A DNA stretch of 64,000 nucleotides from Corynebacterium lizhenjunii. Its GTDB lineage: Bacteria > Actinomycetota > Actinomycetes > Mycobacteriales > Mycobacteriaceae. Under the pieces are notes generated by a model, which ran no database searches, had not been told where the DNA came from, and saw only the letters and a list, made by a program, of their open reading frames with translations. The DNA lies in contig NZ_CP064954.1 in assembly GCF_011038655.2 (NCBI RefSeq), positions 1,178,001 through 1,242,000 on the forward strand. Reading direction: 5' to 3'. Below, piece by piece: positions 1,560 to 62,560 of this stretch. The position numbers and the translations under genes are program-made. Every line of letters begins with the position of its first letter. Position 1 is the stretch's first letter.

Positions 1560-1572
1560 GCTTGCCGATGCC
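1560..1572 (+). repeat. Copy of 13-bp word GCTTGCCGATGCC
   Basis: Exact copy, intergenic, just after the ocd terminator. It faces an inverted copy at 1897 on the other side of the Trm112-like gene. Confidence 0.85.
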
Positions 1573-1665
1573 CTCCCACGACCCGCGCCTCCTCTTCCCT
1601 CGGCCCGCCGCCCCTCCATCCGCGACGGTCCCGGAGCCCACCGAGCAATGCACCAGGCAAGGCTG

Positions 1666-1671
1666 TAGTAT
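1666..1671 (+). promoter_or_regulatory. -10 box of a leaderless promoter (Trm112-like gene)
   Basis: TAGTAT ends 8 bases before the ATG at 1680, so transcription should begin at or next to the start codon. No ribosome site is visible before that ATG. Confidence 0.6.
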
Positions 1672-1679
1672 GCACAAGT

Positions 1680-1865
1680 ATGAGTCTTGACCCTCAATTG
1701 CTAGAGATCCTGGTCTGCCCCCAAGATAAAGGGCCATTGACCTATCTCCCTGAAAAGTCGGTACTGGTCAACGAGCGTTTGCACGTTGCGTATCCAATTG
1801 AGGACGACATTCCGGTCATGCTGGTGGATGAATCCTTCGCCTGGCCACCGGAACCCACTGCCTAG
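1680..1865 (+). CDS. Trm112/UPF0434 family small protein
   Basis: 61 residues beginning MSLDPQLLEILVCPQDKGPL, which matches the small Trm112-like family. The domain is a short zinc-ribbon-like fold that in eukaryotes activates several methyltransferases; bacterial members are poorly characterised. Only one Cys (in LVCPQDKG) is visible; the second Cys pair found in zinc-binding members is absent, so metal binding is doubtful. The start at 1680 was chosen because residue 2 onward matches the family N-terminus and a -10 box sits 8 bases upstream. It is followed by tyrS after 98 bases. Confidence 0.8.
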   Translation: MSLDPQLLEILVCPQDKGPLTYLPEKSVLVNERLHVAYPIEDDIPVMLVDESFAWPPEPTA

Positions 1866-1896
1866 CCTGAGATTTAGGCATAACCGCAGATACAGG

Positions 1897-1909
1897 GGCA
1901 TCGGCAAGC
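1897..1909 (-). repeat. Copy of 13-bp word GCTTGCCGATGCC
   Basis: Exact copy on the minus strand, between the Trm112-like gene and tyrS, followed by more C residues (GCCCCTG). Confidence 0.85.
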
Positions 1910-1963
1910 TGAGGCACAGCTGCGACCCTGATGCCCGCCGCACCACACATTCAAGAAAGAACT

Positions 1964-3299: not shown

Positions 3300-3312
3300 G
3301 CTTGCCGATGCC
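3300..3312 (+). repeat. Copy of 13-bp word GCTTGCCGATGCC
   Basis: Exact copy in the gap after tyrS, at the edge of the G/T-rich stretch; its C-rich half stands out from the surrounding G/T sequence. Confidence 0.85.
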
Positions 3313-4038: not shown

Positions 4039-9104
<5,066 letters not shown>

Positions 9105-18225: not shown

Positions 18226-19410
18226 ATGAGTTTGTTTTCTCGCGCGTCCGACTTGCCCGGCATTCAGGGCACCCTGCGTGATTGCACTCCCGCCGGCAAG
18301 GGGCTCAAGAGGTTCCAGCCGGGGGATTTTGCCGTAATCAGCGCGGCGGATATTTCCCGCCAGGAAGCCCAGGTACTGGTGGACCTCCAGCCGGGTGCGG
18401 TAATAAACGCGGAGAGATTTTCTTCTGGCGCTGTGCCCAATTACGGCCCACACATGTTGTTGGATGCCGAGGCACTGCTGGTAGAGGGTGCCGGCGCGGA
18501 GTTCCTGGCAAACGCCAAGGACGGCAAGCGCGCCCGAATCACGCAAGATGGTGCCATTTTTGTGGGGGAGAAATCCTTGGGCTCTGGCCGGGTGGTGCAG
18601 CGCGCGGAGGCGGAACAGACCTTCACAGAGGCCCAGAGTCTGCTCATTGGCCGCATGGAGGCTTATTTCGGCAACGCCATTGAGCTCATCCACTCCGAAG
18701 GCCCGCTGCTGATTGACGGCATGGGCATCCCAGACTGTGGTGTGGACATGCGCGGGCGCAAAGTCGTGGTGGTCTCCCCGGCGCCGAACCACCGCGAGTT
18801 GATTAAGAATCTGCGCAATTTTATCCGGGAATATGAGCCGGTGTTGGTGGGCGTGGACTCTGCTGCGGACTCCCTGGTGGATCTGGGCTACACCCCGGAC
18901 CTGATTGTGGCCAACCCCAATTCGGTGCAGGCAGAGACCTTGCGCTGTGGTTCCCGCGTGATTGTCCCGGCCACTCCGGAGGGGATGGCGCCGGGACTTG
19001 AGCGCATCCAGGATTTGGGCGTGGGGGCGATGACTTTTCCTTCCGTGCTGGAATCGGCTACGGATTTGGGCCTGTTGCTTGCAGACTTCCACCAGGCTTC
19101 TCTCATTGTGCAGGCTGGCGGGGCAGTAGATCTTGATGCCATCTTTGCCGATGCCCCCCAGGCCACCCCAGCCGCTTTGCTGGCGCGCATGAAGGCTGGT
19201 ACCAAGCTTGTCGATGCCCAGTCGGTCATCTCCCTGTACGCCGCACCGTCGGCGCGACCCACCGCGTGGTTGTGGGCGGTCCTGGGCGTGCTGGTGGCCT
19301 TAGCTGCCATCGTGCTCATTGCTGGTTTTGGTGGCGCGGGCTCCTTTATGGATAATGTGACACAAACGTGGGCGAATATCGTCGATAGCCTAGGGGGATG
19401 GATCAGCTAA
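18226..19410 (+). CDS. steA: Cell-division associated protein SteA
   Basis: 394 residues. The soluble part carries a thiamin-pyrophosphokinase-like fold seen in this family (GMGIPDCGVDMRGRKVVVV, then VGVDSAADSLVDLGYTPDLIV). A single C-terminal membrane helix (WLWAVLGVLVALAAIVLIAG) starts at about residue 348, followed by a short tail. SteA and SteB form a membrane complex linked to septal cell-wall cleavage in C. glutamicum. It overlaps steB by 13 bases, fitting coexpression. Confidence 0.88.
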   Translation: MSLFSRASDLPGIQGTLRDCTPAGKGLKRFQPGDFAVISAADISRQEAQVLVDLQPGAVINAERFSSGAVPNYGPHMLLDAEALLVEGAGAEFLANAKDGKRARITQDGAIFVGEKSLGSGRVVQRAEAEQTFTEAQSLLIGRMEAYFGNAIELIHSEGPLLIDGMGIPDCGVDMRGRKVVVVSPAPNHRELIKNLRNFIREYEPVLVGVDSAADSLVDLGYTPDLIVANPNSVQAETLRCGSRVIVPATPEGMAPGLERIQDLGVGAMTFPSVLESATDLGLLLADFHQASLIVQAGGAVDLDAIFADAPQATPAALLARMKAGTKLVDAQSVISLYAAPSARPTAWLWAVLGVLVALAAIVLIAGFGGAGSFMDNVTQTWANIVDSLGGWIS

Positions 19411-20396
19411 TGCCCCAGCGGTATGCGGCCAAGGCCCCCGTGGTGGCCGGAGTCGGATTTGGTGTGGCCGCGGGCGTGGTCTTCGGAGCGCTTGGGGTGG
19501 GCCCGGTGCTTGCCGGGGACGATACTGCAGAGATTCGGGAGCAGCACCGGCGCACCGTGCAGGACATGCACACCCTGGAGTCTCAGGTGAGCACTGCTGA
19601 TGATGTGGTGGGATCGCTATCGGAGGAGATAGTGGACCAGACCTTAACTCAGCGTCCCGTACTTGTTTTGACCACGGCTACGGCGTCCGACTTCGATGTC
19701 AAGGCGGTGGTCAAGTCCCTGGATGCAGCCGGGCGCGTGGATGCTGGGACCATCAAGTTGAATAAGCCACTGTTTGAACAGGATCGCCAATCCGACGTGC
19801 AAGCGGTGCTGCAGAAGTCTGTGCCCGATAAGCTTCGCCTCCCCGGAAAAGACAAGCCTGCCGGCCAGGCAGCGGGCACTGCTTTGGCCCAGGCATTCTT
19901 CCTTGATGCCCAGTCGACCCAACCGTTGATGACGGACAAGCAGCGCGCAGAGCTTCTGCAAGCTTTGCGGGAGAAGGACTTCATTACTTATGAAGACGGC
20001 TCCATTTTGCCTGCCCAGGCCGTAGTTATTGTGGACGGTAAATCCTCTGGCGTGGGCTTTACGGAGTTTTCCGCCCCAGCCATGGCGCAGTTTGCCGCCA
20101 CCTTGCACTCGACTGGCAAGAATGTGGTTCTCGCCGCGCGGATAGAGTCCGCGGGGGCAGAGGGTACCATCGGCAGGCTGCGCGAGGAGCACCCGGAGGT
20201 CTCCACGGTGGACTCCATTGATCGTGGCTGGGCCCGCATGGCGGTGCCCCTGGCGGTGCGCGAGCAACTGGACGGAGGAGCAGGGGCGTATGGGGCGGCG
20301 GCATCGGCAAGCTCTGGATTGCCTCCCCGCCCGGAGCCTGCCACGGTGCCAGAGGTCTCCTACTACGCGCCCTACGCCGGCTACGGCGCCTACTAG
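19398..20396 (+). CDS. steB: SteB / MctB-like membrane-anchored protein
   Basis: 332 residues. An N-terminal membrane helix (VVAGVGFGVAAGVVFGALG, about 15-33) is followed by a coiled-coil stretch (IREQHRRTVQDMHTLESQVS) and an extracytoplasmic domain, ending in a Pro/Tyr/Gly-rich tail. This matches the DUF3186 family, called a copper transporter (MctB) in mycobacteria and SteB in corynebacteria. The coupling to steA favours the division role. It contains a copy of the 13-bp repeat at 20300. Confidence 0.85.
   Translation: MDQLMPQRYAAKAPVVAGVGFGVAAGVVFGALGVGPVLAGDDTAEIREQHRRTVQDMHTLESQVSTADDVVGSLSEEIVDQTLTQRPVLVLTTATASDFDVKAVVKSLDAAGRVDAGTIKLNKPLFEQDRQSDVQAVLQKSVPDKLRLPGKDKPAGQAAGTALAQAFFLDAQSTQPLMTDKQRAELLQALREKDFITYEDGSILPAQAVVIVDGKSSGVGFTEFSAPAMAQFAATLHSTGKNVVLAARIESAGAEGTIGRLREEHPEVSTVDSIDRGWARMAVPLAVREQLDGGAGAYGAAASASSGLPPRPEPATVPEVSYYAPYAGYGAY
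20300..20312 (-). repeat. Copy of 13-bp word GCTTGCCGATGCC
   Basis: Exact copy read on the minus strand, within the low-complexity Ala/Ser-rich tail of steB. Confidence 0.8.
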
Positions 20397-21045: not shown

Positions 21046-21936
21046 ATGGAAGAACTCGCGCGCACCTGGCTTAATCACTTGGCGGTTGAGCGAGGACTGA
21101 GTGCAAACACCCTGAGTAATTATCGTCGCGACCTGCGCCGCTACCTGGACTGGCTGGCCGAGGCCGGCATAGACTCCTTGGATCAGGTCACCCGCCAGCA
21201 CGTGGAGGCCTACTTGGCACACTTGCGGGGTGAGCTGGCAGCGGCATCGGCAAGCAGAGCGTTGATCGTCGCGCGTGGCCTGCATAAATTTGCCGTCGCG
21301 GAAGGCCTGTTGGCAGCAGACGTCGCAGCCGAGGTCTCCCCACCAGCTGCGCCCAAACACCTGCCCGACACCTTGAGCATTGCGCAAGTCACCCGCTTGC
21401 TCGACTCCGTGCCCACCGGTGAGGCCGCCACGCCGGTAGACGTGCGTGACCTAGCGCTGCTGGAGCTGCTCTACGGCACCGGCGCCCGGATCTCGGAGCT
21501 TATCAGCCTGAACGTGGATGACGTCAGCGGTGACCCGGACATTCTACGCGTGCGGGGTAAGGGCGACAAGGAACGCCTGGTGCCCCTGGGCTCGCAGGCC
21601 CGCGCGGCCGTGCAAGCCTACCTAGTGCGCGGCCGGCCCGTGATGAACCAGGGCAAGACCCCGGCGCTTTTCCTCAATACTCGCGGCGGGGCGCTGTCCC
21701 GGCAATCCGCATGGGCGATATTGAAACAATCCGCCCAACGCGCCGGCCTGGAGCAGGATATTTCCCCGCACACGCTGCGCCATTCTTTCGCTACCCACCT
21801 GCTAGAAGGCGGTGCCGATGTGCGCAGCGTGCAGGAGCTGCTGGGCCATTCCTCGGTGACTACTACGCAGATTTATACCCACGTCAATGCGGAGTCACTG
21901 CGTCAGGCTTGGCAGCTGGCGCACCCGCGTGCTTAA
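21046..21936 (+). CDS. xerD: Site-specific tyrosine recombinase XerD
   Basis: 296 residues. The N-terminal SAM-like core-binding domain (about 1-90) is followed by the catalytic domain with Arg148 (TGARISE), Lys173, His242 and Arg245 ([10 protein letters not shown]), His268 (LLGHSS) and the nucleophile Tyr277 (QIYTHV). Together with XerC it resolves chromosome dimers at dif. The start lies 4 bases after the nudix stop, so the genes are likely coupled. Confidence 0.95.
21243..21255 (-). repeat. Copy of 13-bp word GCTTGCCGATGCC
   Basis: Exact copy read on the minus strand, inside xerD at the linker between its two domains. Confidence 0.8.
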
Positions 21937-21968: not shown

Positions 21969-22991
21969 ATGCAGGTTCGTCGCGCAATAGCGGCCACAGT
22001 GGTGGCCGGGGCGGTGTTGTCCTCGGGCGCGTGGGGCGCACACGCCGTTCCGGCTGGGGTGTCAATGGCTGATGTGCTGGCCGCAGTCTCTGCCCCCGTC
22101 GCGGTTCCGGCTGGCCAGACCACTACCGTGTCGCTGCCGGTGCCGGTGGAGGTCTCCTTTAATGCCGATGGCTGGTCTGTTCAGGCCTCCGGGGGCACAG
22201 CCACCGTTAGTGCGCCGGCTGCCGGCGGCGAGGCCGTTGTGCCAGTGAGCTATGCCGGGCAAACCATCAACCTGCACTTGGTAGCGCAGGCAGGTGCTGA
22301 AGTGCCTGAGCTTGCCGATGCCCCAGCCCCGCACGATGGTGCCTCCGCAGCGCCGGGCGTTACTCCGGAAGGAGGGGCCGGTCCGGACGGTGGCGGCGCT
22401 GACGTTCCGGGTGCAGGTTCGGAAGGTGGGGTCGGCGCAGACGCTGAGTCGCGCCCGACAGTGCCAGGGGATACCCCGCCGCGCTCGCCCGCCGCGCCCG
22501 TGGATGCAACGCAAGCGGAGCGCATCTACCTGCAGGCCCAGATCCAGGGCAACACCTTGACTGCCACATTGGGGGTGAGCCAAGCGCTAGAGCTGTACAA
22601 CCGCTTCAAAGATGTGGACCAAGCGGGCCATAAGGTGCGTTACCTCGACGCCGACGGCAACATCATCGAAGGGGTGCGCCGGGACATTCAAGCAGCCCAG
22701 CGCACGATGGTACTGACCTATCCCGAAGGCCAGGCACCGGATAATCCCTTCATCATTCAGCTGGTGGAGCGCGACGGTTCGCGGGTGGTTGCAGAGGTGG
22801 TGCTGCGCGACCCGGCGTACCGCTACGCCGATAGCCCAAGCCCGGAGCAATTAGCGCAGGAAGAGCAGGGGATCCACGATGGTGGGCGATGGTCGCTGGG
22901 CGTGCTCGCACTGGTAGCGGTGGCGGGACTGGTGCTGGTGGGCGGCATCGGGCTGGGGGTCTGGTGGTGCTTGCGCGGGCGGCGGCAGTAG
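21969..22991 (+). CDS. Secreted, C-terminally membrane-anchored protein of unknown function
   Basis: 340 residues. The ATG at 21969 is 8 bases after GAAAGGA and starts a clear signal peptide (RRAIAATVVAGAVLSSGAWG, cleavage near AHA-VPAG). The mature part has a small beta-rich segment, then a Gly/Pro/Ala/Asp-rich linker (about 110-175), a second domain (QAERIYLQAQ onward), and a C-terminal helix VLALVAVAGLVLVGGIGLGV followed by RGRRQ. The topology fits a surface protein held by its C-terminal helix. I recognise no family. It lies between xerD and parA. Confidence 0.75.
   Translation: MQVRRAIAATVVAGAVLSSGAWGAHAVPAGVSMADVLAAVSAPVAVPAGQTTTVSLPVPVEVSFNADGWSVQASGGTATVSAPAAGGEAVVPVSYAGQTINLHLVAQAGAEVPELADAPAPHDGASAAPGVTPEGGAGPDGGGADVPGAGSEGGVGADAESRPTVPGDTPPRSPAAPVDATQAERIYLQAQIQGNTLTATLGVSQALELYNRFKDVDQAGHKVRYLDADGNIIEGVRRDIQAAQRTMVLTYPEGQAPDNPFIIQLVERDGSRVVAEVVLRDPAYRYADSPSPEQLAQEEQGIHDGGRWSLGVLALVAVAGLVLVGGIGLGVWWCLRGRRQ
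22310..22322 (+). repeat. Copy of 13-bp word GCTTGCCGATGCC
   Basis: Exact copy within the linker-encoding region of the secreted protein gene; it encodes Leu-Ala-Asp-Ala-Pro. Confidence 0.8.
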
Positions 22992-26277: not shown

Positions 26278-26572
26278 TCTCGCGGGATGTTCGCAAGGGT
26301 TATCGGAAAATTGTCCGCTCGAGTGTGCAATGAGGGTAAACTTTGGGAGGATTTACCGATGGTAATGGGGCACCCACACGGGGGTGACTCAACCCAGACG
26401 GGGGTAGGCCGATCGCGGCGCTCAAGCGGGATTTCGGTCTGGATGTCGGCGCTAGGCGGTAGCAATGGCAGGCGGGGTGTCGGCGCCAGGTTAGAGCAAA
26501 GGAGGGCAGGGGGGCGGCGGTGGGCGGGGCATCGGCAGGCTGGGGTTAAGGCGAGGGGTAAAGTGATGCCCC
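26278..26572 (+). other. Gap before scpB
   Basis: 295 bases with no gene. It must hold the scpB promoter and the opposing HNH promoter. Its right half is G-rich and contains a near copy of the 13-bp word (GGGGCATCGGCAGGCT at 26526). Weak purine runs lie just upstream of scpB. Confidence 0.4.
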
Positions 26573-28217: not shown

Positions 28218-28912
28218 TGATTAGTAACTTGGCAGATGATGGTTTGATTGTGGCTGTGGATGGGCCTTCGGGCACTGGGAAGTCCTCGACGTGCCGGGCG
28301 TTGGCAAAGCAGCTGGATGCGCGCTATATCGACACGGGGGCGATGTATCGTATTGCCACGTTGGCGGTGTTGCGCGCGGGTGTGGACCCGGCAGATAATG
28401 CTGAGGTGATTGCTGCGACGGCGGATTTGCCGCTGGAGGTTAGTGACGATCCTGATTCGAAGCAGGTCTTTTTGGCCGGCGAGGACGTTTCCCGGGAGAT
28501 TCGCGGGGATGAGGTCACCCGCGCGGTTTCTGCAGTTTCTGCTATCCCGCAGGTGCGGCACAATTTGGTGGAGCTGCAGCGCAAGCTGGCGCGCACGTCG
28601 CACCGGGCGATTGTGGAGGGCCGCGACATTGGCACCGTGGTGCTTGCCGATGCCCCCGCAAAGGTCTACCTGACTGCCTCCGCGCAGGTGCGTGCCCAGC
28701 GCCGCTATGAGCAAAATCTTGCTGCAGGCATGGAGGCCGACTTTGACGCTGTGCTTGCCGATGTCCAGCGCCGCGACGCCGCGGATTCCTCCCGCGCCAC
28801 CTCGCCGCTGCGACCTGCCGATGATGCCCGCGTGGTGGATACTTCCGACATGACGTTGGACGAGGTTCTCGACTGCCTGATTGAGATTGTGAAGGAGACT
28901 GCACATGAGTAA
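28217..28912 (+). CDS. cmk: Cytidylate kinase
   Basis: 231 residues. P-loop GPSGTGKSS (16-24), NMP-binding elements YIDTGAMYR and [23 protein letters not shown] are all present. The enzyme phosphorylates CMP and dCMP with ATP. It overlaps rluB by one base and der by 8 bases, giving a translationally coupled rluB-cmk-der unit. Confidence 0.96.
28642..28654 (+). repeat. Copy of 13-bp word GCTTGCCGATGCC
   Basis: Exact copy in cmk encoding Leu-Ala-Asp-Ala-Pro; two further core copies follow within 175 bases (28756 and 28816). Confidence 0.8.
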
Positions 28913-35017: not shown

Positions 35018-35422
35018 CTATTCTACCTCGCCGGAGCTGTAGTACCAGCGGCCGTTGTGCCGGTGGAAGGTGGAGCGCTCACGCTGCGAACCGCTAGCCG
35101 CGCCTTTGTAGAAGGCCTCGAATTCCACCACGCCGGTGCTGTCAAACAATCCACCGCCTTCGGCGTGCACAATCTCCAGCCGGTAAAAGCGCACCGGCAT
35201 ATCTTCGAGGTTGAGCTCGCTGGGACGTGTTCGCGGGTCCCAGGTGTCTAGCAGGTAGCGGCTATCACCGGTAACAAACGCACTAAACCGTGAGCGCATC
35301 AGCGCCTCAGCAGTGGGGGCGGGCTGGCCCGCGTGGTATTTGCCGCAACATTGGTCAAAGGATAATCCGGTGCCGCACGGGCAACGCTTTGGCGGCAGCT
35401 GAGAGGGCGGTTTAGGGGGCAT
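35018..35422 (-). CDS. YchJ-like SEC-C motif protein (UPF0225)
   Basis: 134 residues. The N-terminal SEC-C zinc motif has Cys14, Cys16, Cys25 and Cys26 (RCPCGTG, FDQCC). It is followed by the YchJ core (PTAEALMRSRFSAFV, then WDPRTRPSEL and ending WYYSSGEVE). YchJ proteins are uncharacterised NTF2-like proteins. The start was set at the ATG that begins MPPKPP; this ATG lies inside a copy of the 13-bp repeat, and the gene overlaps the upstream hydrolase gene by 11 bases. Confidence 0.85.
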   Translation of the reverse strand: MPPKPPSQLPPKRCPCGTGLSFDQCCGKYHAGQPAPTAEALMRSRFSAFVTGDSRYLLDTWDPRTRPSELNLEDMPVRFYRLEIVHAEGGGLFDSTGVVEFEAFYKGAASGSQRERSTFHRHNGRWYYSSGEVE

Positions 35423-36670: not shown

Positions 36671-38968
36671 ATGGGCGCATTTGATTGGTTCTGGAAGGCG
36701 ATGGGGGCGCAGTCTGAGCGCAACGACAAAAAGTCCAAGGCCATTGTGGATGGTTCCGCTGCTGCCACGGCAGATTTAGCACAGCTTGACGATGCCGCCG
36801 TGGCCAACGCCGCCCGTGCGGCCGTGGCCGCAGGTGCCATCGCGGACAAGCCAGCATTCCTGGCAGCTTTGGCTGTGGCTAGCCAGCGCACGCTGGGCAT
36901 GGCGCCGCACCATGTGCAGTCCCAGGCGGTGCTGCGCCTGCTTGAAGGTGATGTGATCCACATGGCCACTGGTGAGGGCAAGACGTTGGTGGGCGCGATG
37001 GCCGCTACCGGGTTCGCCTTAACTGGCAAGCGAGTCCACTTGGTGACGGTGAATAATTACCTGGCTGGGCGTGATGCCGAATGGATGCGGCCCTTGGTGG
37101 AATTCTTTGGTCTGAGTGTGGATTCGGTGACAGAGGAGCTGGATGCGAAGCAGCGCCGCCAGGCGTATCAGGCCGATATTGTCTACGCGCCGGTGGCGGA
37201 GTTGGGCTTTGATGTCTTGCGGGATAACCAGATTACGGAGCGCAGCCAGGCTGTGCAGGCACGTGCGGACGTGGCCTTGGTGGATGAGGCTGATTCCGTG
37301 CTGGTCGATGAGGCCTTAGTGCCGTTGGTGTTGGCTGGCAACCGGCCAGGAGAGGCGCCGACCGGCCAGATTACGGCCGTGGTCGCTCGCCTGCGGGAGG
37401 GGCAAGACTATGTGATCAATGACGATGGCCGCGCGGTGTCTCTGACTGATGAAGGCGCCAGGCGGGTGGAGCAGGAGTTAGGGATTGACTCGCTGTACTC
37501 GGAGGAAAATATCGGCACTATTTTGGTGAAGGTGAACTTGGCGCTGCATGCGCGCGCCCTGCTTATCCGCGATATTCACTACATTGTCAACGAGGGCAAG
37601 CTTTCGCTTATCGATGCCTCCCGCGGCCGCGTAGCACAGCTGCAGCGCTGGCCTGATGGCCTCCAGGCCGCAGTAGAAGCTAAAGAGGGCCTAGAGGTCT
37701 CGGAAGGCGGACGCATACTTGACACCATCACGCTGCAGGAGTTGATGCGCCGGTACCCGTTGGTGTGCGGGATGACTGGTACTGCGGTAGAGGCGACTGA
37801 TCAGCTCCGCGAGTTTTATGGGCTGCGGGTGTCTGTCATTGAGCGCAATAATCCACTGCAGCGTGTAGATGAGGCCGATAGGGTCTATGCCACCATCGCG
37901 GAGAAGAACCGGGCCATCGTTGAAGAGATTGAACGGATTCACGCCACTGGGCAGCCCGTCTTGGTAGGCACCCACGATGTGGCGGAGTCTGAGGAGCTAG
38001 CCGCAGCTTTGCATGAGCGCGAGATTGCGGTCAATGTGCTCAACGCTAAAAATGACGCGGAGGAGGCCGGCATTATTGCCCAGGCCGGCGATCTGGGCCG
38101 GGTAACGGTTTCTACCCAGATGGCTGGACGCGGCACCGACATCAAGCTCGGCGGGGCTGACGGCGCCGACCACGCTGAGGTCATTGCATTGGGCGGCTTG
38201 GCTGTAATCGGGACCTCGCGATATCGCACGTCCCGGCTGGATAATCAGCTGCGTGGACGGGCAGGGCGCCAAGGCGATCCGGGGACTAGCGTGTTTTTCA
38301 TCTCTCTGGAAGACGACGTTGTGCGCCAAGGTGGCGAAGACGAGTCTCTATCTGCGCGACCGGATGCCTCCGGCCGGGTGGATTCTAAGCGGGTACGCGA
38401 CTTCATCGCCCATTGCCAACGCGTCACCGAAGGCCAGTTGCTAGAGATCCACTCCCAGACGTGGAAGTACAACCAATTGTTGGCAGATCAGCGCATTATC
38501 ATCGACGAGCGTCGCGCCAACCTCTTGGACAGTGATCAAGCCTGGCAGGAGCTTTCCCAACGCGCGCCGGCGCGCGCCGCCGAGTTGCGCGATGCCGGCC
38601 TGGACGAAGAGGTGCTAGAGCGGGCGGCGCGCACCATCATGCTGTATCACCTGGACCTGGCATGGGCAGATCATTTGGAGGTGATGGACGACGTGCGTGA
38701 GTCCATTCACCTGCGTGCGATTGCCCGGGAGACCCCGATTGCGGAGTATCACCGCATTGCTGTGCGCGAGTTCAAGCATCTGGCTCAAGATGCGGTGGAT
38801 AAGGCCGTTGAGACTTTTAACACAGTGCGCATTGATGCAGAAGGCGCCCATCTGGAGGACGCCGGGCTGTCGCGACCAAGCGCGACGTGGACATACATGG
38901 TCTCTGATAACCCCCTGGCGGGAAGCGGCAACTCCGTACTGCGGGGTATTGGCAACATTTTCCGTTAG
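36671..38968 (+). CDS. secA2: Accessory preprotein translocase ATPase SecA2
   Basis: 765 residues, shorter than the main SecA (about 850-900) and lacking the C-terminal zinc-binding tail. Walker A MATGEGKT is at 98-105. ALVDEADSVLVDEA gives Walker B. QMAGRGTDIKLGG and LRGRAGRQGDPG are the helicase motifs V and VI. It drives export of a subset of proteins with SecYEG. The ATG at 36671 follows GAGGAGGG; an upstream in-frame ATG at 36641 lacks such a site. secA2-odhI-ftsR order is characteristic of corynebacteria and mycobacteria. Confidence 0.95.
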   Translation: MGAFDWFWKAMGAQSERNDKKSKAIVDGSAAATADLAQLDDAAVANAARAAVAAGAIADKPAFLAALAVASQRTLGMAPHHVQSQAVLRLLEGDVIHMATGEGKTLVGAMAATGFALTGKRVHLVTVNNYLAGRDAEWMRPLVEFFGLSVDSVTEELDAKQRRQAYQADIVYAPVAELGFDVLRDNQITERSQAVQARADVALVDEADSVLVDEALVPLVLAGNRPGEAPTGQITAVVARLREGQDYVINDDGRAVSLTDEGARRVEQELGIDSLYSEENIGTILVKVNLALHARALLIRDIHYIVNEGKLSLIDASRGRVAQLQRWPDGLQAAVEAKEGLEVSEGGRILDTITLQELMRRYPLVCGMTGTAVEATDQLREFYGLRVSVIERNNPLQRVDEADRVYATIAEKNRAIVEEIERIHATGQPVLVGTHDVAESEELAAALHEREIAVNVLNAKNDAEEAGIIAQAGDLGRVTVSTQMAGRGTDIKLGGADGADHAEVIALGGLAVIGTSRYRTSRLDNQLRGRAGRQGDPGTSVFFISLEDDVVRQGGEDESLSARPDASGRVDSKRVRDFIAHCQRVTEGQLLEIHSQTWKYNQLLADQRIIIDERRANLLDSDQAWQELSQRAPARAAELRDAGLDEEVLERAARTIMLYHLDLAWADHLEVMDDVRESIHLRAIARETPIAEYHRIAVREFKHLAQDAVDKAVETFNTVRIDAEGAHLEDAGLSRPSATWTYMVSDNPLAGSGNSVLRGIGNIFR

Positions 38969-39587: not shown

Positions 39588-40337
39588 GTGAACGCAGCAC
39601 GACACAGCTCGGCAGCCGTGCGCCCGCAAGGGCAGGCGGGCGCCAAGAAAGCTAAGACCATGTCCATTGGCGTGGTTCTTAATACCCTGAATACGCAGTT
39701 TCCGGATGTGACCGTATCCAAGATTCGCTTCTTGGAGTCCGAGGGGCTGATTACCCCGCAGCGTACTGCCTCTGGGTACCGCCGTTTTACGGAGGCCGAC
39801 ATTGATCGGCTGCGCTTCATCTTGACCACTCAGCGGGACAACTACACTCCGTTGAAGGTGATCAAGGAACAGCTTGATGCCATGGACTCCGGTCAGGTCA
39901 CCGCTATTGTGGGGGCAGGCCAGGCTGAGACCCTGGTGTCTCCGGAACAGTTCCGCGCTCCGGCTGTCACTAGGCTTACCGATGCCGACGTTGCCGCACA
40001 GGCAAACACCACGGAGGAAGAGGTTGCCAACCTGGTCAAGCTGGGGTTGGTCACCCCGGATGTCTCTGGGTTCTTTACTGCTGATGATGTGGCGGTGATT
40101 TCCACCGCCCTGGCACTGAAGGCCTTTGGTTTCGATTCGCGCCAGATTAAGACTTTGCGCAATAACGCTCGCCGTCACGCCGATCTTATTGCCCAGGTGG
40201 CTAACCCAGTGGCCACTACCAAGTCAGACACCGCTCGCCAGCAAGCCGAAGAGCTATCCCAGCAGATGGCCGCCCTGGTGGTCTCCCTGCACGGTACCTT
40301 GCTCAAGACCGACTTGCGCAGCGAGTACCAGCCCTAA
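39588..40337 (+). CDS. ftsR: MerR-family regulator FtsR
   Basis: 249 residues, GTG start. A basic arm precedes the MerR helix-turn-helix (MSIGVVLNTLNTQFPDVTVS, then KIRFLESEGLITPQRTASGYRRF). The linker and C-terminal part differ from metal- or drug-sensing MerR proteins. The orthologue next to odhI activates ftsZ in C. glutamicum; the same is assumed by position and sequence. It is followed by a strong terminator. Confidence 0.9.
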   Translation: MNAARHSSAAVRPQGQAGAKKAKTMSIGVVLNTLNTQFPDVTVSKIRFLESEGLITPQRTASGYRRFTEADIDRLRFILTTQRDNYTPLKVIKEQLDAMDSGQVTAIVGAGQAETLVSPEQFRAPAVTRLTDADVAAQANTTEEEVANLVKLGLVTPDVSGFFTADDVAVISTALALKAFGFDSRQIKTLRNNARRHADLIAQVANPVATTKSDTARQQAEELSQQMAALVVSLHGTLLKTDLRSEYQP

Positions 40338-41953: not shown

Positions 41954-42796
41954 CTAATCCATGATTCCGGCAACGGTTGTTAGGGCTTGGCGCATCGAAT
42001 TAGAATCGGCGGCGTTGGCCTCCGCGAATTGGCCCGCGGTGTCCTTGAGGACTTCGTCTGGAGTGTCGCCGACGTGGATGACGGCGAGCTGAACGGAGCC
42101 ACCGGTGGCGTTGCTCACCGCCGAACGGAACTCTGCGTCGTCCATATCCGGCTCGGTGCCGGAGGTTATAAGGAGAACGCGGGTGGGGGTATCGGCGGCC
42201 TTGGCGTGCTCGTTGGCGTGAGCCAGTGCGGCGACCACCGCAGAGCGTGTGTGCGTATAGCCGCCAGTGCCAAACATGGTTACGGCCTGGGCCACGGGCT
42301 CGCCCGGACCGAAGCCCACGTTATTTCGGTAGCCCACGCGCGCCGTAGCTGACAGGGGACTGGAGTAGTTCCACAGGGCTACGGCGTGGCCTGCGGCGCT
42401 GGTTTGGCGGGCGGCATCGGCAAGAACGGGAGCTACCGCAGGGTAGGCCTGGGCCATGGCGGCGGAAGTGTCGAGTAGGAAGAGGGTATCGCTGAGTTGC
42501 GCCTGTGCAGGTGCAGGTGCGGGCGCGGAGCTCGGGGCCTCGGAAGTGGTCATTTCTGACGAAGTTGCCTCCGGGACGCTGCTAGACGAAGGCGCCGACG
42601 ATTGCGTGGTGGATGCCACCGTGGACTCCACACGGCTGGGGGCGGCGGGCTGCGCGGTAGCGTCTGCTTTCGAATCATTCTGGTTGGCCACAATCCACAC
42701 GGCGCCGAAAACCAGCGCCGCACTCACGGCGATGAGCAGTGCCACCACCCACCAAGCCATGGCAAACGTATTCTTCCCGTTAGCGTGGCGTCCCAT
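41954..42796 (-). CDS. Membrane-anchored VWA-domain protein
   Basis: 280 residues. The start at 42796 (MGRHANGKN) precedes a single membrane helix (AWWVVALLIAVSAALVFGAV, about 15-35). A Ser/Thr/Pro/Ala-rich linker (40-110) leads to a von Willebrand factor A domain (TLFLLDTSAAMAQ, RVLLITSGTEPDMDDAEF). The MIDAS motif DxSxS is degenerate (DTSAA), so metal-dependent binding may be lost. The topology fits a surface protein. The frame is open further upstream but only with non-family, Arg/Ser-rich sequence. Confidence 0.8.
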   Translation of the reverse strand: MGRHANGKNTFAMAWWVVALLIAVSAALVFGAVWIVANQNDSKADATAQPAAPSRVESTVASTTQSSAPSSSSVPEATSSEMTTSEAPSSAPAPAPAQAQLSDTLFLLDTSAAMAQAYPAVAPVLADAARQTSAAGHAVALWNYSSPLSATARVGYRNNVGFGPGEPVAQAVTMFGTGGYTHTRSAVVAALAHANEHAKAADTPTRVLLITSGTEPDMDDAEFRSAVSNATGGSVQLAVIHVGDTPDEVLKDTAGQFAEANAADSNSMRQALTTVAGIMD

Positions 42797-43057: not shown

Positions 43058-43927
43058 CTAGGGGGAGGCAGTGGCGGCGGTGTGGGCGGCATCGACAAGC
43101 GCAATGAGCTCCCGGCGCAAGGAAGTGGCGCGGCGGGCAAGCTCGCGCTGGCGGCGCACGTACTCAGCCTTGCCCTCCGGCGTCTCAATGGGCACCACTC
43201 CAAAACCCCAGTCGCGGCAGTCATAGGGGGAGGCCTCCATGTCCAAGGTGCGCGCGGCCACGGCCACATCAAAGGCCTGCAAAAACAACTCACCAGGCAC
43301 CAACGGGCCTAGCTTCCACGCCCACTTGTAGACGTCCATGGAAGCATGCACACAGCCTGACTGGTCGCACTCGGGCTGGGTGGCGCGCTCAAGGACAGTC
43401 AAGTTCAGCGGGCGAGCCGGGGGAGTAAAGAAACGATAGGCGTCATAGTGCGTGCACTTGAGCCTGTGGGATTCCACCACCGCATTGGTGCCTTCAGCAC
43501 CCAGCCGCAGCGGGAGGTCGTGGCGCGGGGTATCCGTGCGGTAGACCATGGCCCACTCATGCAGGCCAAAGCAGTCGAAGGTGGCCGGGTTATCAATAGT
43601 GCGCGCCATGAGATCACGCATGAAGATAAAAGACTCCCCACGCCGCGCCCACAAAGCCTTGAGGTCAACCGTGTGGGCGGGACCATCGGGGCCGGGGACG
43701 GTGCGGTAGTCGCGGTAGGTGGCATGAGGGGCATCGCCAGACACGGCCACCCCGAAGCCCGGGTGCCAGCGGCGCAGGTGGCTGGGGCGAACTGGATAAT
43801 ACTCAAAGAGGAAGTCATAGACCGGGTGATAGGACCCCGGGTGACGGAAGCGGGACAAACGATCATCCGCGGCGGCCTCATGGGCTTCTTGGCGCTCGCG
43901 CCAGTGGCTGGGGCGCAGGTAGTCCAT
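43058..43927 (-). CDS. Conserved corynebacterial protein annotated as 3-methyladenine DNA glycosylase
   Basis: 289 residues, starting at the ATG 6 bases after AAGGAG (MDYLRPSHWRERQEAH). It is rich in Trp, Tyr, His and Arg (FLFEYYPVRPSHLRRWHPG, ATFDCFGLHEWAMVYR). I know this family from actinobacterial genomes, where it is often labelled a 3-methyladenine DNA glycosylase, but I see no helix-hairpin-helix or AlkA motif, so the label is weak. The helicase gene lies upstream on the same strand with a 20-base gap, so the two may form an operon. Confidence 0.65.
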   Translation of the reverse strand: MDYLRPSHWRERQEAHEAAADDRLSRFRHPGSYHPVYDFLFEYYPVRPSHLRRWHPGFGVAVSGDAPHATYRDYRTVPGPDGPAHTVDLKALWARRGESFIFMRDLMARTIDNPATFDCFGLHEWAMVYRTDTPRHDLPLRLGAEGTNAVVESHRLKCTHYDAYRFFTPPARPLNLTVLERATQPECDQSGCVHASMDVYKWAWKLGPLVPGELFLQAFDVAVAARTLDMEASPYDCRDWGFGVVPIETPEGKAEYVRRQRELARRATSLRRELIALVDAAHTAATASP

Positions 43928-47638: not shown

Positions 47639-48238
47639 ATGATGCGTGTCAAGCCCATGGTGCGCGCCGCCGCCATCGCCATCACCGCTACTGCCGCCCT
47701 CGTGGGCGGAAGCGGTGCAGCCACCGCCGTTGACAGCGCCGCCGCCTACCGCCTGCCGCAACGCTGGAATGACGACTACCAGCCCGGCACCTATTGCTCC
47801 ACGCCAGGGGCGCGGGGCATGTACGTGGAGGCACAACGGCTGTGGTTCAAGCAGACCGATGCCACCAGCGTGGCCAACCGCAATGACCACGCCGTTCCGG
47901 TCAAGCACACCGTCAAAGACACCCGCACCCAGACCACACAGGTTTGGGGCAAGGCCACCCCGAAGGGGGAGGTGGAAAAGTACCTCAGCAGCACCTATGG
48001 CTTCCACTATGTCCACCAGGTGCATTGGTCCATTGGCCAGACCGTGGGTCCTTACACACTCGAATCTGGTGAGCAAGGCAAGCTGGTGTGGGGTTTTATG
48101 ATGTTGGATGCCTCCGGTCAAGACGTCACCTGCAGCACCGACCAGGAATGGGTCCGCACCGGCAGGCCCTATTCCATCAGCGCGCCCCAGTCCCGCTACT
48201 CTGAACTTCAGCTTGCCGATGCCCCCGTCTTCGGCTAG
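47639..48238 (+). CDS. Secreted protein, third member of the cluster
   Basis: 199 residues (first of two consecutive ATGs; AAAGGAG upstream). Signal peptide ending near ATA-VDSA. The two Cys (GTYCSTPG and DVTCSTDQEW) bracket a Thr-rich strand region (VPVKHTVKDTRTQTTQVWG) and the shared VGPYTLESGEQGKLVWGF motif, aligning with the protein at 47008. It ends QLADAPVFG, where the 13-bp repeat forms the codons. A terminator follows. The three genes have short gaps and are likely one operon. Confidence 0.68.
   Translation: MMRVKPMVRAAAIAITATAALVGGSGAATAVDSAAAYRLPQRWNDDYQPGTYCSTPGARGMYVEAQRLWFKQTDATSVANRNDHAVPVKHTVKDTRTQTTQVWGKATPKGEVEKYLSSTYGFHYVHQVHWSIGQTVGPYTLESGEQGKLVWGFMMLDASGQDVTCSTDQEWVRTGRPYSISAPQSRYSELQLADAPVFG
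48211..48223 (+). repeat. Copy of 13-bp word GCTTGCCGATGCC
   Basis: Exact copy within the last codons of the third secreted gene. It faces an inverted copy at 48366 across the shared terminator. Confidence 0.85.
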
Positions 48239-48365: not shown

Positions 48366-48378
48366 GGCATCGGCAAGC
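48366..48378 (-). repeat. Copy of 13-bp word GCTTGCCGATGCC
   Basis: Exact copy overlapping the stop codon of the response-regulator gene, in inverted orientation to the copy at 48211. Confidence 0.85.
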
Positions 48379-56355: not shown

Positions 56356-56368
56356 GCTTGCCGATGCC
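56356..56368 (+). repeat. Copy of 13-bp word GCTTGCCGATGCC
   Basis: Exact copy in the 19-base gap between convergent genes, followed by CCCC. An inverted copy lies at 56602 inside thiD-tenA. Confidence 0.85.
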
Positions 56369-56373: not shown

Positions 56374-57933
56374 CTACCGCACCTCCGCGCCACCCGTACC
56401 GTACCTGCGGCTGGCCTGGTCGAAAAAGTCCACCTCATGGCGCGAGGCCAAGCAGAAGGCATCCTGGGCACGGCGCCTGGTGGGGGTATCGGCAGACTCG
56501 AGGGCATGTTCCACCAGTTCGATGGCTTGGCGGGTGCTGTCTAGGAAGTCCTCGCCGCCGTAGACAGAAAGCCAGGCGGTGTAGGGGTGGTTGGGGTGGT
56601 TGGCATCGGCAAGCAACTTGCCCACCGCAGCGTAGAGCCAGAAGCAGGGCAGCACTGCGGCGGCGGCAACCGCATAGGTGTCCGTGTGCGTGGTGGCCAC
56701 CAGGAAATCCGTGTAGGCCCTGGTCACGCGGGAGGGTGCAAGGGTAGGGCGGCTGCCTAACCAATTGCGGTGTAGGGAGGCCTCCTCCTCGACGCATTCC
56801 ACGGAAGAGGCCTGCCAAAACGCCGCCTCATGTGCTGCAACCCCGTCGCGCTGGGCCACCCCGGATAGGGCCACGGCGTAGGAGTTGAGGTAGAGCGCGT
56901 CCTGGGCTAAATAGAAGTCAAAGTCTTCCTTGGGCACAGTTCCCGCTGCAAGCCCGCGGATGAAGTCCAGCCCGCAGATGTCTAGCCAGTGCTGGGCGGC
57001 TGCCTCCCACAAGGCTTGGGTGTGCGGACCAGCGGCGGAGACCACGGGATCTGGGGTGGGGGTAGCTGGGGCGGGTGCGGCGGGGTCATAGGTGCTGTCG
57101 CACAATGCAGCCTGGTGAGCCAGGCGGTAGTTGTGGTTGACCGGGCCGTGCGATTGTGGGGAGTTGCCCACGTGGAGTTCGGCGGCATGGGCGATGGCCT
57201 CGTTGAGCCAGCGGGTGGCCCAGTGCAGGGCTTGGGGGCCGGCCTCGCCGTGGGCCAGACGGGTGGCCAGGGCAGCAGAGAGGGAACAGCCGGTGCCGTG
57301 GGTGTGCGGGGTGTCTACGCGCGGGGAGGCGACGCGGTGGACCTCGCCGGTGGGGCTCACCCAGGCGTTGTCTGCTTGCGGGCCGGTTAAGTGGCCGCCC
57401 TTGACCACGACGGCGACGTTGGTGGATTGGGCCCACTTTGTGGCCAGCGTGACGGCGGTGTCGAAGTCGCCGGGTTCTGGCTGGCCGGTGAGCACCGCCA
57501 ACTCCTTGAGGTTAGGGGTAATGACGGTGGCCCGCGGGCACAAGCTGCGCAGGGCGTCTTGGGCAGAGGCGTCTAGCAGCTCATCCCCGCTGGTAGCCAC
57601 CATGACGGGGTCTAGGACCACCGGGGTGTGGGTGGGTAGGTGGGCCAGGAAATCTGCAACCACGGCGCAGATCTCCGCGTTGGCCAGCATGCCAATTTTG
57701 ACGGCGTCGATGGATACATCGCTGGCAATCGATTCCAGCTGGGCGCGCAGGAACTCCTGCGGCGGCACGTGCACGGACTGCACGCCGGTGGTGTTTTGGG
57801 CCGTCAGTGCAGTGAGTGCACTCATGCCATAGCCGCCGGCGGCGAGGATGGATTTGAGGTCGGCCTGGATGCCGGCGCCGCCGGAGCAATCCGAACCGGC
57901 GATGGTCAAGATACGGGGAATGTTATACGTCAT
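56374..57933 (-). CDS. thiD-tenA: Bifunctional ThiD-TenA fusion (HMP/HMP-P kinase and thiaminase II/amidase)
   Basis: 519 residues. ThiD (about 1-265) has GSDCSGGAGIQADLKS, LDPVMVATSGDELL and the ATP site DTPHTHGTGCSLSAA; it phosphorylates HMP and HMP-P. A Pro/Ala linker (about 280-300) leads to TenA (about 305-519) with its catalytic Cys in VLPCFWLY and the Glu in ELVEHALE-type helices. TenA salvages HMP from degraded thiamine. The fusion joins two salvage steps in one chain. The gene ends the thiM-thiE-thiD operon, overlapping thiE by 11 bases. Confidence 0.93.
   Translation of the reverse strand: MTYNIPRILTIAGSDCSGGAGIQADLKSILAAGGYGMSALTALTAQNTTGVQSVHVPPQEFLRAQLESIASDVSIDAVKIGMLANAEICAVVADFLAHLPTHTPVVLDPVMVATSGDELLDASAQDALRSLCPRATVITPNLKELAVLTGQPEPGDFDTAVTLATKWAQSTNVAVVVKGGHLTGPQADNAWVSPTGEVHRVASPRVDTPHTHGTGCSLSAALATRLAHGEAGPQALHWATRWLNEAIAHAAELHVGNSPQSHGPVNHNYRLAHQAALCDSTYDPAAPAPATPTPDPVVSAAGPHTQALWEAAAQHWLDICGLDFIRGLAAGTVPKEDFDFYLAQDALYLNSYAVALSGVAQRDGVAAHEAAFWQASSVECVEEEASLHRNWLGSRPTLAPSRVTRAYTDFLVATTHTDTYAVAAAAVLPCFWLYAAVGKLLADANHPNHPYTAWLSVYGGEDFLDSTRQAIELVEHALESADTPTRRRAQDAFCLASRHEVDFFDQASRRYGTGGAEVR
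56602..56614 (-). repeat. Copy of 13-bp word GCTTGCCGATGCC
   Basis: Exact copy within the TenA-encoding part, encoding Leu-Ala-Asp-Ala. Confidence 0.8.
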
Positions 57934-59626: not shown

Positions 59627-59694
59627 TTATGCGTGCCACCGGCAAAGGTGTGCGGTGTGCTGCTAGCGGGGAATGCTTCTAGGTAGCGGGGGGA

Positions 59695-61074
59695 CTACTT
59701 GTCCTTCGCCTTGCCTTTCTCGTTGTCCTTCTTGCTGTCCTGAGCGTCTAGGACGTTGCGGGCCACGCGCTGCTGCTGGGTGATCTCCAGGTTGCCGCGG
59801 TCGCGCGAAATCAGGTTGCCAATCCAGTTGATGGCCACCAATGCGCGGTTGCGGAAGCCCACCAGGTAGACAATGTGCAGGCCCAGCCAGGCCAACCACG
59901 CTGGGAAGCCAGCGAACTCGGACTTGCCCATCTTTACCACCGCGTTGAAGCGGGAGATGATGGCCATGGATCCCTTGTCAAAGTAGTCAAAGGCCTCTGC
60001 CTTATCAGCAGTAGACTCCTCGTCCACCTTGGCGGCAATGAGCTTGGCGGCATGGGCGCCACCCTGCATAGCCACCTGGGCCACACCCGGGAGACGGTCC
60101 AGGCTCATCATGTCGCCCACGACGTAGACGTTGGAGTACTCGCCCACGGTCAGATCGGCGTTGACCGGAACGCGGCCAGCGCGGTCGGCCTCGACGCCAG
60201 CCTGCTCCGCAATCAGCTTGCCCAGCGGGGAGGCAGCCACACCAGCGGACCAGATCTTCACACCAGCCTCGATGGTGGTTTCCTGCTCAGACTTCATGTC
60301 CTTGTAGGTCACGGAGTCTGCGTCCACGTTGGTCACCATGGCGTTGAGGCGCACGTCTACGCCCAGCTTCTCCAGGGTGCGTTGTGCTTTGCGGCCTAGG
60401 CGCTTGCCAAAGGGTGGCAGCACCTGCGGGGCACCATCTAGCAGGTAGATCTTTGCCGAGCCCGGGGCAAAGGTGGAGTAGGCGCCTTCAAAGGAACGGT
60501 TAGCCAGTTCTGCAATCTGGCCGGTCAGTTCCACACCGGTAGGCCCGGCACCCACGATGACGAAGGTCAGTAGGCGCTCGCGCTCTGCCGGGTCATCGCA
60601 CAGCTCAGCCTTTTCAAAGGCGGTAACGATGGAGGAGCGCAGCTCCAGGGCGTCATCCAGAGTCTTCATGCCCGGCGCGAACTCAGCAAAGTGGTCGTTA
60701 CCGAAGTAGGACTGGCCAGCACCAGCGGCCACGATCAGGGAGTCGAAGCCATAGGTGCGGGTAGCGCCATCGAGTTCGACGGTGACAGTCTGCTCTTCTA
60801 GCTGGATGTCGGTGACTTCGCCGTTGACAAAGTTGGCGTTGTCCTGGCCGCGCAGAATCTGGCGGGTGGACGGGGCGATTTCGCCAGCCGAAACCAGGCC
60901 GGTGGCTACCTGGTAGAGCATGGGCTGGAATAGGTGGTGGTTCTTTTTGTCGATGACAGTGATATCGACGTCAGCGTTCTTCAGGGCCTTGACGGCATTG
61001 AGCCCGCCAAATCCGGCGCCAATGACGACGACGTGGTGGCGGGAACCATTGGGGCGGAAAGCGTTTTCAGCCAT
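59695..61074 (-). CDS. ndh: Type II NADH dehydrogenase
   Basis: 459 residues. FAD-binding GAGFGG at 19-24, the second dinucleotide motif VIVGAGPTGVELTGQIAE, and YVVGDM near 310. A C-terminal amphipathic membrane-binding region follows (LAWLGLHIVYLVGFRNRALV) and a Lys-rich tail. It passes electrons from NADH to menaquinone without pumping protons. The start at 61074 gives MAENAFRPNG; an upstream ATG adds a non-family segment. Confidence 0.95.
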   Translation of the reverse strand: MAENAFRPNGSRHHVVVIGAGFGGLNAVKALKNADVDITVIDKKNHHLFQPMLYQVATGLVSAGEIAPSTRQILRGQDNANFVNGEVTDIQLEEQTVTVELDGATRTYGFDSLIVAAGAGQSYFGNDHFAEFAPGMKTLDDALELRSSIVTAFEKAELCDDPAERERLLTFVIVGAGPTGVELTGQIAELANRSFEGAYSTFAPGSAKIYLLDGAPQVLPPFGKRLGRKAQRTLEKLGVDVRLNAMVTNVDADSVTYKDMKSEQETTIEAGVKIWSAGVAASPLGKLIAEQAGVEADRAGRVPVNADLTVGEYSNVYVVGDMMSLDRLPGVAQVAMQGGAHAAKLIAAKVDEESTADKAEAFDYFDKGSMAIISRFNAVVKMGKSEFAGFPAWLAWLGLHIVYLVGFRNRALVAINWIGNLISRDRGNLEITQQQRVARNVLDAQDSKKDNEKGKAKDK

Positions 61075-61143
61075 AAGTTCAGCGTAACCTCTCAAAAGTT
61101 GTTTAAGTACGCACATAAGTCTAGACGGTCCGGGGGCCTACGT

Positions 61144-61195
61144 CACACCGCGGGGCCACACCGCAGGGGCACACTGCGGGGCCACACCGCAGGGG
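61144..61195. repeat. Tandem repeats of 26 bp between ndh and ufaA
   Basis: Two units (61144-61169 and 61170-61195), one mismatch apart, are each built of two 13-bp halves (CACACCGCGGGGC and CACACCGCAGGGG). A partial further unit follows. They lie in the divergent promoter region of ndh and ufaA. Confidence 0.8.
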
Positions 61196-61209
61196 CGCAC
61201 TGCGTGCAC

Positions 61210-61215
61210 TACGAT
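61210..61215 (+). promoter_or_regulatory. Candidate -10 box for ufaA
   Basis: TACGAT lies just after the tandem repeats and overlaps an in-frame ATG at 61214, which therefore cannot be the start if this promoter is used. Confidence 0.4.
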
Positions 61216-61282
61216 GGTCACGTTAGCTGCCTGCGCCGCGGAGGTGAGACCGCCGGCTGTCTACCCAGGGGAGAGGTTGTAC

Positions 61283-62560
61283 GTGGAAGACCACTTGCGC
61301 GCCATTGACGCCGAGGCGTGGCCCAGCGTGGCCACGGTACCGCAGCCGCGATTTGCCTCTTGGCGCGCGCAGCGGGCGGAGGCCGCCTTTGCTAAGGCCT
61401 GTGCAGCCGCGGAGTTGGTGCTTGAAGGTGCGGACGCTGATCTGACAGTTGCGCATGACGCGTTGTTTCACCGGCTGGCTGCCCACGGCTGGATTGGTTT
61501 TGCTGAGTCTTATCTGGCCGGGGAGTGGACCACGCCGGATTCTGCGCACTTGGTAAAGGTACTAAGCGCGCTGATTGCAACAGGCTATGCACCGAACACT
61601 CCGGATGTGCCGCGCCAGGACGTTGCGGGCGGCGAGTTGCCCCCTGATTTGGTGCGCCTTTATGCCGGCGACCGCGTCAGCCACCAAGGCGGGGTGTATT
61701 CCACGGGGGTGCCCACTACAGTGCGTCATGCGATTGAGGCTCATGAAAAGCGTGGGAAGACTCATTTTGTGGACATCACGACGCTGAGCGAACCTACTGC
61801 CGTGGATCGGGAGGATTTGGCTGATGCCCAGGTCCGTGCCGCGCAATGGCTTGCCGATGCCGCCCAGGTCGGCCCCGGCACCCACGTGCTGGTTTATCCT
61901 GCATCCGGCGTCCAGGCTGCCGTGGTGTCTGCGGGCAGGCGGGGGGTGGTGGACTTGCTTAGCGCCGATGCCGAGGCTTTGCGTGATGTGGCCGAGTACT
62001 TGGTTTTTGCCGGAGCTACCGATGCCGTGGCCTGCCACATTGTGCCGCAGCCCCTGCCTGGCCCGAAGCATTGGCGCGGGCACTATGACGCCATTATCAG
62101 TGTGGAAGCCCTGGAGTCCTTCCCGCAGGCGGACCGAGTGCGCTACGCGCGGATGATTGAGCGTCTACTAGACGGCGATGGCACCGCAGTCATCCAAACC
62201 ACGGTGGCGACGGAGTCCATGTCGCCTGCCGCCCGCGGGGCGGTGCGGGGGCTGCAGGCGTTTATTTGGCCAGGACTGGACTATCCCAGCACGCAGGACG
62301 TACACAAGTTACTGGACAAGCACACTGGGTTGCGCGCGGTAGCCCAGACGCATACGGGCAGCCATTATCGCGAGTCCCTGGCACAACAGCGTTCCTTTTT
62401 CGCTGGCCACCTGCGCGAGGCTGCCGCAGCTGGGTATGACCCGGTTTACCGGCGGCTGTGGATGTACCAATTCGCGTTGCGCGAGGCGCTCTTCGCCTCA
62501 AACATGCTGGACTCCGTGGCCTTTAGCGTCGTCCACCGTCACCGCCGCGGGCGCCGCTAG
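61283..62560 (+). CDS. ufaA: Cyclopropane-fatty-acid synthase-like methyltransferase (UfaA type)
   Basis: 425 residues from GTG at 61283, which follows GGGGAGAGG. The family pattern is recognised from HLRAIDAEAWPSVATVP, GWIGFAESYLAGEW, and the end RRLWMYQFALREALFASNMLDSVAF. Neighbourhood with ndh is also that of ufaA in C. glutamicum. UfaA proteins make tuberculostearic-type methyl-branched fatty acids. Oddly, the SAM motif I, normally VLDIGCGWG, reads THVLVYPASGVQAAV, and the neighbouring acid is also altered, so SAM binding is uncertain. Confidence 0.75.
   Translation: MEDHLRAIDAEAWPSVATVPQPRFASWRAQRAEAAFAKACAAAELVLEGADADLTVAHDALFHRLAAHGWIGFAESYLAGEWTTPDSAHLVKVLSALIATGYAPNTPDVPRQDVAGGELPPDLVRLYAGDRVSHQGGVYSTGVPTTVRHAIEAHEKRGKTHFVDITTLSEPTAVDREDLADAQVRAAQWLADAAQVGPGTHVLVYPASGVQAAVVSAGRRGVVDLLSADAEALRDVAEYLVFAGATDAVACHIVPQPLPGPKHWRGHYDAIISVEALESFPQADRVRYARMIERLLDGDGTAVIQTTVATESMSPAARGAVRGLQAFIWPGLDYPSTQDVHKLLDKHTGLRAVAQTHTGSHYRESLAQQRSFFAGHLREAAAAGYDPVYRRLWMYQFALREALFASNMLDSVAFSVVHRHRRGRR
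61849..61861 (+). repeat. Copy of 13-bp word GCTTGCCGATGCC
   Basis: Exact copy inside ufaA, encoding Leu-Ala-Asp-Ala. Confidence 0.8.

Follow-up and report, generated by a model that had tools for sequence, protein, structure and literature searches.

What is the 13-bp word GCTTGCCGATGCC that recurs on both strands of a 64-kb stretch of the Corynebacterium lizhenjunii chromosome (positions 1178001-1242000 of contig C1, hereafter the window)? A sequence-only reading of the window had likened it to a DNA-uptake-like sequence, to a nucleoid or recombination signal, or to a spreading mini-repeat. The answer suggested by genome counts and comparisons across the genus is that the word is probably the DNA uptake sequence of a genus-wide natural transformation system dependent on a Flp/Tad pilus. 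The first of the earlier proposals is thereby supported on four sides, namely the genome count, a codon test, the lack of strand polarity, and orthologues that align without gaps at the word.

Copy number and motif

The window holds 13 exact copies of the word, each at the coordinate and on the strand first read by eye, and 8 copies with one mismatch. The shuffled window is expected to hold 0.23 copies with at most one mismatch, and none of 100 shuffles gets to 21. The core TGCCGATG, previously put at about 27 copies, is counted 28 times (15 forward, 13 reverse). Over the whole genome, which is one contig of 2,607,882 bases, the exact word occurs 393 times (205 forward and 188 reverse), while the reversed word, used as a control, has no copy on the forward strand and none on the reverse. 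The composition sample consists of the window and 20 further 20-kb stretches distributed along the chromosome, 464 kb in all, and is the basis of most counts for this genome given below. It contains 82 exact copies, where a third-order Markov model predicts 0.06 and a fifth-order one 0.64, and 179 copies of the core TGCCGATGCC, for which 3 are expected; the word is its highest-ranking 13-mer by the score applied. The genome count thus lies far over expectation, as the earlier reading required. An iterated weight matrix returns the consensus A-GCTTGCCGATGCC-(C/G)CC, in which each position of the centre, CGATG, is conserved in 89-100% of sites. Sites of at least 12 bits number 396, roughly one every 1.2 kb, as compared with 16 in the reversed sequence. 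The 5' side also has a second form, GTCTGCCGATGCC, present in 25 copies.

Selection on the DNA word

Genes in the samples were taken from our own simple caller (395 genes), and 61 of the 82 exact copies fall within them, 36 in sense and 25 in antisense orientation. All but one of the 36 sense copies are read in one frame, coding LADA, and the 25 antisense copies in two frames, opposite GIGK and ASAS codons. The wider set of 350 in-gene sites of at least 12 bits is likewise uneven (250 sense versus 100 antisense), and a single sense frame holds 246 of them, as would be expected if the word were a by-product of codon usage or of selection for a LADAP peptide. This explanation is nevertheless refuted by synonymous-codon shuffling within genes, since 200 shuffles yield on average 0.3 sense and 1.5 antisense copies, that is 1.8 where 61 are observed, and the copies in antisense frames and between genes are equally foreign to it; we regard its probability as negligible. 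Selection therefore acts on the DNA word, as had been proposed, and the codon usage of Leu-Ala-Asp-Ala-Pro, raised at the time as a possible explanation, fails to account for the enrichment. The peptides are themselves in excess, LADA occurring 50 times versus 12 from composition and LADAP 17 times versus 0.6, and LADA is spelt CTTGCCGATGCC in 40 of the 50 cases, CTT making up 7.8% of leucine codons. Therefore, the DNA word has altered the proteins too.

Placement and orientation

The copies in the window are as follows.

1560..1572, forward: exact word, between an ornithine cyclodeaminase-like gene and tyrS
1897..1909, reverse: exact word, immediately upstream of tyrS
3300..3312, forward: exact word, downstream of tyrS and ahead of the rRNA operon
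19206..19218, forward: one-mismatch copy
20300..20312, reverse: exact word, antisense within gene 19398-20396, peptide ASAS
21243..21255, reverse: exact word, antisense within xerD, peptide ASAS
22310..22322, forward: exact word, sense, peptide LADAP in a variable linker
26528..26540, reverse: one-mismatch copy
28642..28654, forward: exact word, sense, within cmk
28753..28765, forward: one-mismatch copy
33592..33604, reverse: one-mismatch copy
35418..35430, reverse: exact word, 3' end of called gene 35412-36527 (reverse)
36784..36796, forward: one-mismatch copy
39974..39986, forward: one-mismatch copy
42413..42425, reverse: one-mismatch copy
43088..43100, reverse: one-mismatch copy
48211..48223, forward: exact word, close to the 3' end of called gene 47639-48238
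48366..48378, reverse: exact word, touching the 3' end of called gene 48378-49028 (reverse)
56356..56368, forward: exact word, between called genes
56602..56614, reverse: exact word, within HMP-P kinase-like gene 56374-57933 (reverse)
61849..61861, forward: exact word, within called gene 61277-62560

The impression that about a third of the copies sit at gene ends or in gaps holds in the window, where 4 of the 13 lie outside called genes and one more on a gene end. It is not established in the 464 kb, where 21 of 82 exact copies are outside genes, which make up all but 17.8% of the DNA (p = 0.08). The rRNA genes (4042-9354) were said to be free of the word, and indeed no site of at least 12 bits lies between 3292 and 10151. 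Elsewhere in the window, GC-rich tandem repeats at 25069-25196, a 30-bp unit in three copies followed by a 15-bp unit, occupy the end of the reverse-strand frame 25063-26277.

The sign of the GC skew flips between 1.30 and 1.43 Mb, and frames resembling dnaN and recF are recognized by eye at the contig start. Sites of at least 12 bits show no replication-strand polarity, 201 being on the leading and 195 on the lagging strand, and the same holds for pooled skeleton sites in seven relatives (175 versus 186). The absence of this polarity tells against a signal for replication or segregation. Chi-like signals, which mark DNA for intracellular recombination or self-recognition by sparing it from, or directing, a nuclease, are short, frequent, non-palindromic, and different between bacteria, as this word is, and the exact copies taken by themselves lean to the leading strand (49 versus 33, p = 0.10). 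However, Chi-type signals are biased in orientation with replication, and such a role is unlikely here. A site bound by a nucleoid, segregation or regulatory protein could account for a word dispersed both in and between genes, as the copies outside called genes illustrate, but the missing replichore polarity and the occurrence of in-gene copies at all gene positions speak against it, and we consider it improbable.

Origin, mainly by substitution

A mini-repeat that spreads by inserting copies of itself would also give many copies in two orientations. Pairs of sites at most 60 bp apart are in the same orientation in 40 of 46 cases and in opposite orientation in 6, and the linker that carries the copy at 22310 is gapped in all three alignments, both of which would suit such an element. 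However, the word in xerD is aligned without gaps in 5 of 5 fetched orthologues, which differ there by substitutions, that in gene 19398 in 3 of 3 orthologues (about 40-43% identity), and 10 of 11 alignments in a wider scan are ungapped at the word. In 65 TyrS sequences (3 of 68, having internal stops as we cut them, were excluded), the 12 skeleton sites fall at 6 places, all ungapped. The word thus arose by substitution at most sites examined, and since the orthologues are mostly ungapped a spreading insert is disfavoured, to the point of being very improbable.

The close pairs of like orientation suggest local duplication in linkers. Runs of same-orientation motifs spaced 9-33 bp apart, as if linkers had grown by duplication of a LADAP-like unit, are seen in samples L015 (about 17696-17749), L024 (about 9489-9527), and L027 (about 13754-13834), among others. 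In sample L009, two strong copies in opposite orientation start 43 bp apart (5136-5196) in a terminator-like arrangement as in Neisseria. The same sample carries on its minus strand, at about 15900-16900, a frame with an IS3-transposase-like stretch, recognized by eye.

Distribution in the genus and beyond

Among 242 Corynebacterium genomes, the exact 13-mer is most frequent in C. lizhenjunii, followed by C. phoceense MC1 (G128, 232 copies), G151 (204), G001 (203), Corynebacterium sp. ACRPS (G175, 200), Corynebacterium sp. MSK130 (G144, 198), G143 (185), G106 (143), G024 (92), C. macginleyi (G101, 90), and G027 (73). A tail then runs from 52 down, and most genomes have 0-8 copies. The strain and species names derive from TyrS loci and were assigned on identical counts. 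Samples of 100 kb indicate that genomes lacking the exact word carry an enriched word of their own on a common skeleton, GCTTNNCGAYG, such as GCTTGTCGATG in G004 and GCTTATCGACG in G002, G010, and G030. When its count is compared with that of the reversed control, this skeleton is enriched at least threefold in 189 of the 242 genomes, at a median of 1121 copies; the forward and reverse totals of these 189 differ by 0.06% on average. G065 has 1261 skeleton copies. The ratio is 2-3 in 8 genomes and less than 2 in 45. In contrast, none of 140 genomes from 30 other genera of the family attains a threefold ratio: the median is 1.10, two genomes are between 2 and 3 (maximum 2.67), 18 between 1.5 and 2, and 120 below 1.5. 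The skeleton is therefore confined to Corynebacterium among the genera sampled.

Eleven of the low-skeleton genomes were sampled, over 60-100 kb each. G018 and G049 retain CGACGCC with other flanks, and G012 has a different dispersed word, CGCGRCGTCAT (ATGACGYCGCG; samples L143-L147). No strong word is found in the samples of G131, G029, G043, G011, and G007, and the GC-rich G120, G206, and G232 have weak GC-rich words at most. In G012, 12-mers at 13 copies each also overlap to form a longer repeat that may be a CRISPR or tandem array.

Dialects

The species spellings, or dialects, differ by having CGATG or CGACG, altered spacers, or other flanks. They were assigned from tad-locus samples of 41 genomes (with extra samples for some), a non-random set made up of 40 genomes with listed tadA coordinates and that of C. 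lizhenjunii. Nine are CGATG, one of these, G032, being assigned from two sites, 29 are CGACG, and 3 are without skeleton signal. The spacer of C. lizhenjunii is the most fixed of the 41, being GC in 102 of 137 sites. On a TadA-TadB-TadC tree, obtained by a quick method with a midpoint root and with a long-branch warning for G030 and G012, C. lizhenjunii pairs with C. phoceense MC1 (support 99), and the CGATG label requires four changes, three of which are forced by well-supported branches. The clade with all CGATG genomes contains a CGACG group that includes C. tuberculostearicum (G105), and within that group lies G001, which is again CGATG. The dialects share a conserved core, cluster on the tree, and have switched repeatedly. 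Such switches of spelling among close relatives, together with the 45 genomes in which the skeleton is below twice the control, tell further against a Chi-like signal, and the change of dialects and loss of the word among relatives against a protein-binding site.

The putative uptake machinery

Of the competence genes that the sequence-only reading had proposed to look for, comEA and comEC are present and adjacent, and the genome has a complete Tad/Flp pilus locus. The tad locus of C. lizhenjunii (about C1:222013-227165) encodes CpaE/Ssd (TIGR03815), TadA (TIGR03819), two T2SSF proteins, Flp (DUF4244), a TadE (NF041390; 39.8 bits, the cut-off being 40), and a TadE/G-like Rv3654c protein (PF13400, TIGR03816) that was scanned as a full open frame. 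Its gene order resembles that of the Micrococcus luteus clusters required for transformation. The comEC and comEA genes are near C1:1875592-1877549, beside a frame that by eye is holA-like; an alternative match of the ComEC probe is by eye an apparent P-type ATPase and was dropped. CpaE, TadA, TadB, TadC, and TadF are found in all 41 loci inspected, as is Flp by motif. TadE is found by motif in 28 of 41, and a TadE-like frame in all 41 by place and a looser motif; TadE and Flp were taken by motif because profile searches partly matched TadF and neighbouring frames. ComEA is present in 29 of 30 comEC loci. Across the 242 genomes, matches exceed the cut-off for TadA in 232, Flp in 238, and ComEC in 241, and the named C. 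glutamicum control has both ComEC and Flp. The presence of the Tad/ComEC machinery fits an uptake sequence without discriminating within the genus. In the TadF-like pilin of C. lizhenjunii (sample L153, 12825-13165), a variable loop has an extra QLADAAAVAV, LADA included, that by eye is in none of the 40 other rows.

A putative uptake system

From these observations we infer competence, binding of the word by a receptor, and preferential uptake. On the cell surface, a receptor belonging to the Flp/Tad pilus-ComEA-ComEC machinery would bind GCTTnnCGAyG, in C. lizhenjunii in the dialect AGCTTGCCGATGCC(C/G)CC, and DNA of the same species would be taken up preferentially as a result. Recombination of the incoming DNA would then spread and maintain the word wherever point substitutions are tolerable. 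Drift of the receptor specificity would give rise to dialects, and loss of specificity would let the words decay.

Several results weigh against this proposal. The word does not favour gene termini, a trait of the Pasteurellaceae, as 25 of 54 exact copies and 125 of 333 sites of at least 12 bits are found there where 40% is expected. The skeleton ratio is below 2 in 45 genomes and between 2 and 3 in 8. TadA, Flp, and ComEC are near-universal, including in word-poor genomes, and so do not predict the word; the presence of TadA or Flp as a switch for it was rejected on this ground. A divergent TadA is found in 29 of 44 word-poor genomes versus 5 of 184 word-rich ones (6 with no or a very weak TadA match being excluded). 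XerD is likewise divergent (about 50-58% identity) in many word-poor and several word-rich genomes. Given this overlap with divergent XerD in many of the genomes concerned, the TadA link was set aside, its association with word loss being probably one of phylogenetic distance. The receptor was sought as alignment columns separating the 9 CGATG genomes from 17-29 CGACG genomes in ComEA, ComEC, CpaE, TadA, TadB, TadC, TadE, TadF, and Flp. Among these nine proteins, no surface protein cleanly tracks the dialect. A loose cut is passed by a single column in TadA and another in CpaE, ComEC columns 368 and 370 come near it, and none separates the dialects in the pilins or ComEA, the few independent switches making this a weak test. 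Lastly, among the open-access papers listed for competence in Corynebacterium, none shows transformation data by its title or the start of its abstract.

Even so, it seems likely that Corynebacterium has an uptake-specificity system that arose independently of both known ones and would be the first outside Proteobacteria and the first with a Tad/Flp pilus; its dialects would act as mating barriers that changed to and fro among closely related species. If true, Gram-positive actinobacteria would supply a third case, unrelated to the other two, and DNA-uptake specificity would have evolved repeatedly. Natural transformation in Corynebacterium would then become directly testable, and the roughly 190 genomes with switching dialects would be a resource for receptor discovery by covariation.

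Comparison with known systems

Chi and KOPS are frequent short genomic words that are polar to replication, and HIP1 is one that is palindromic. The Corynebacterium word is likewise frequent and short but neither polar nor palindromic. Among the matches listed from the open-access literature, none is seen to describe such a word for Corynebacterium.

In a 2025 paper, two proteobacterial families are described as the only known cases of uptake-sequence specificity. The DNA uptake sequences (DUS) of Neisseriaceae form dialects with a conserved core that are consistent with phylogeny (PMC3630211). The Corynebacterium word resembles the DUS, which is read by the minor pilin ComP, in being short, non-palindromic, abundant, and divided into dialects with a conserved core. 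It differs in its unrelated sequence, its occurrence in Actinobacteria, and a Tad/Flp instead of a type IVa pilus, and no receptor was found for it among the nine proteins scanned. Known uptake sequences favour one orientation in the reading frame without a general orientation bias, as reported by van Passel (PMC2346458). The word is similar to the uptake signal sequence (USS) of Pasteurellaceae, being over-represented, without general orientation bias, and with one in-frame orientation favoured, but is unrelated in sequence and lacks the gene-terminus bias. In M. luteus, transformation depends on the Flp pilus and requires two tad clusters, which the tad locus of C. lizhenjunii parallels in gene order; the paper on it nowhere uses the term 'uptake sequence'. 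The set of features seen here, namely density, symmetry, a preferred frame, selection at the DNA level, and dialects with a core, is that of the DUS and USS, while the word differs from them in its sequence, in the phylum that carries it, and in the associated pilus.

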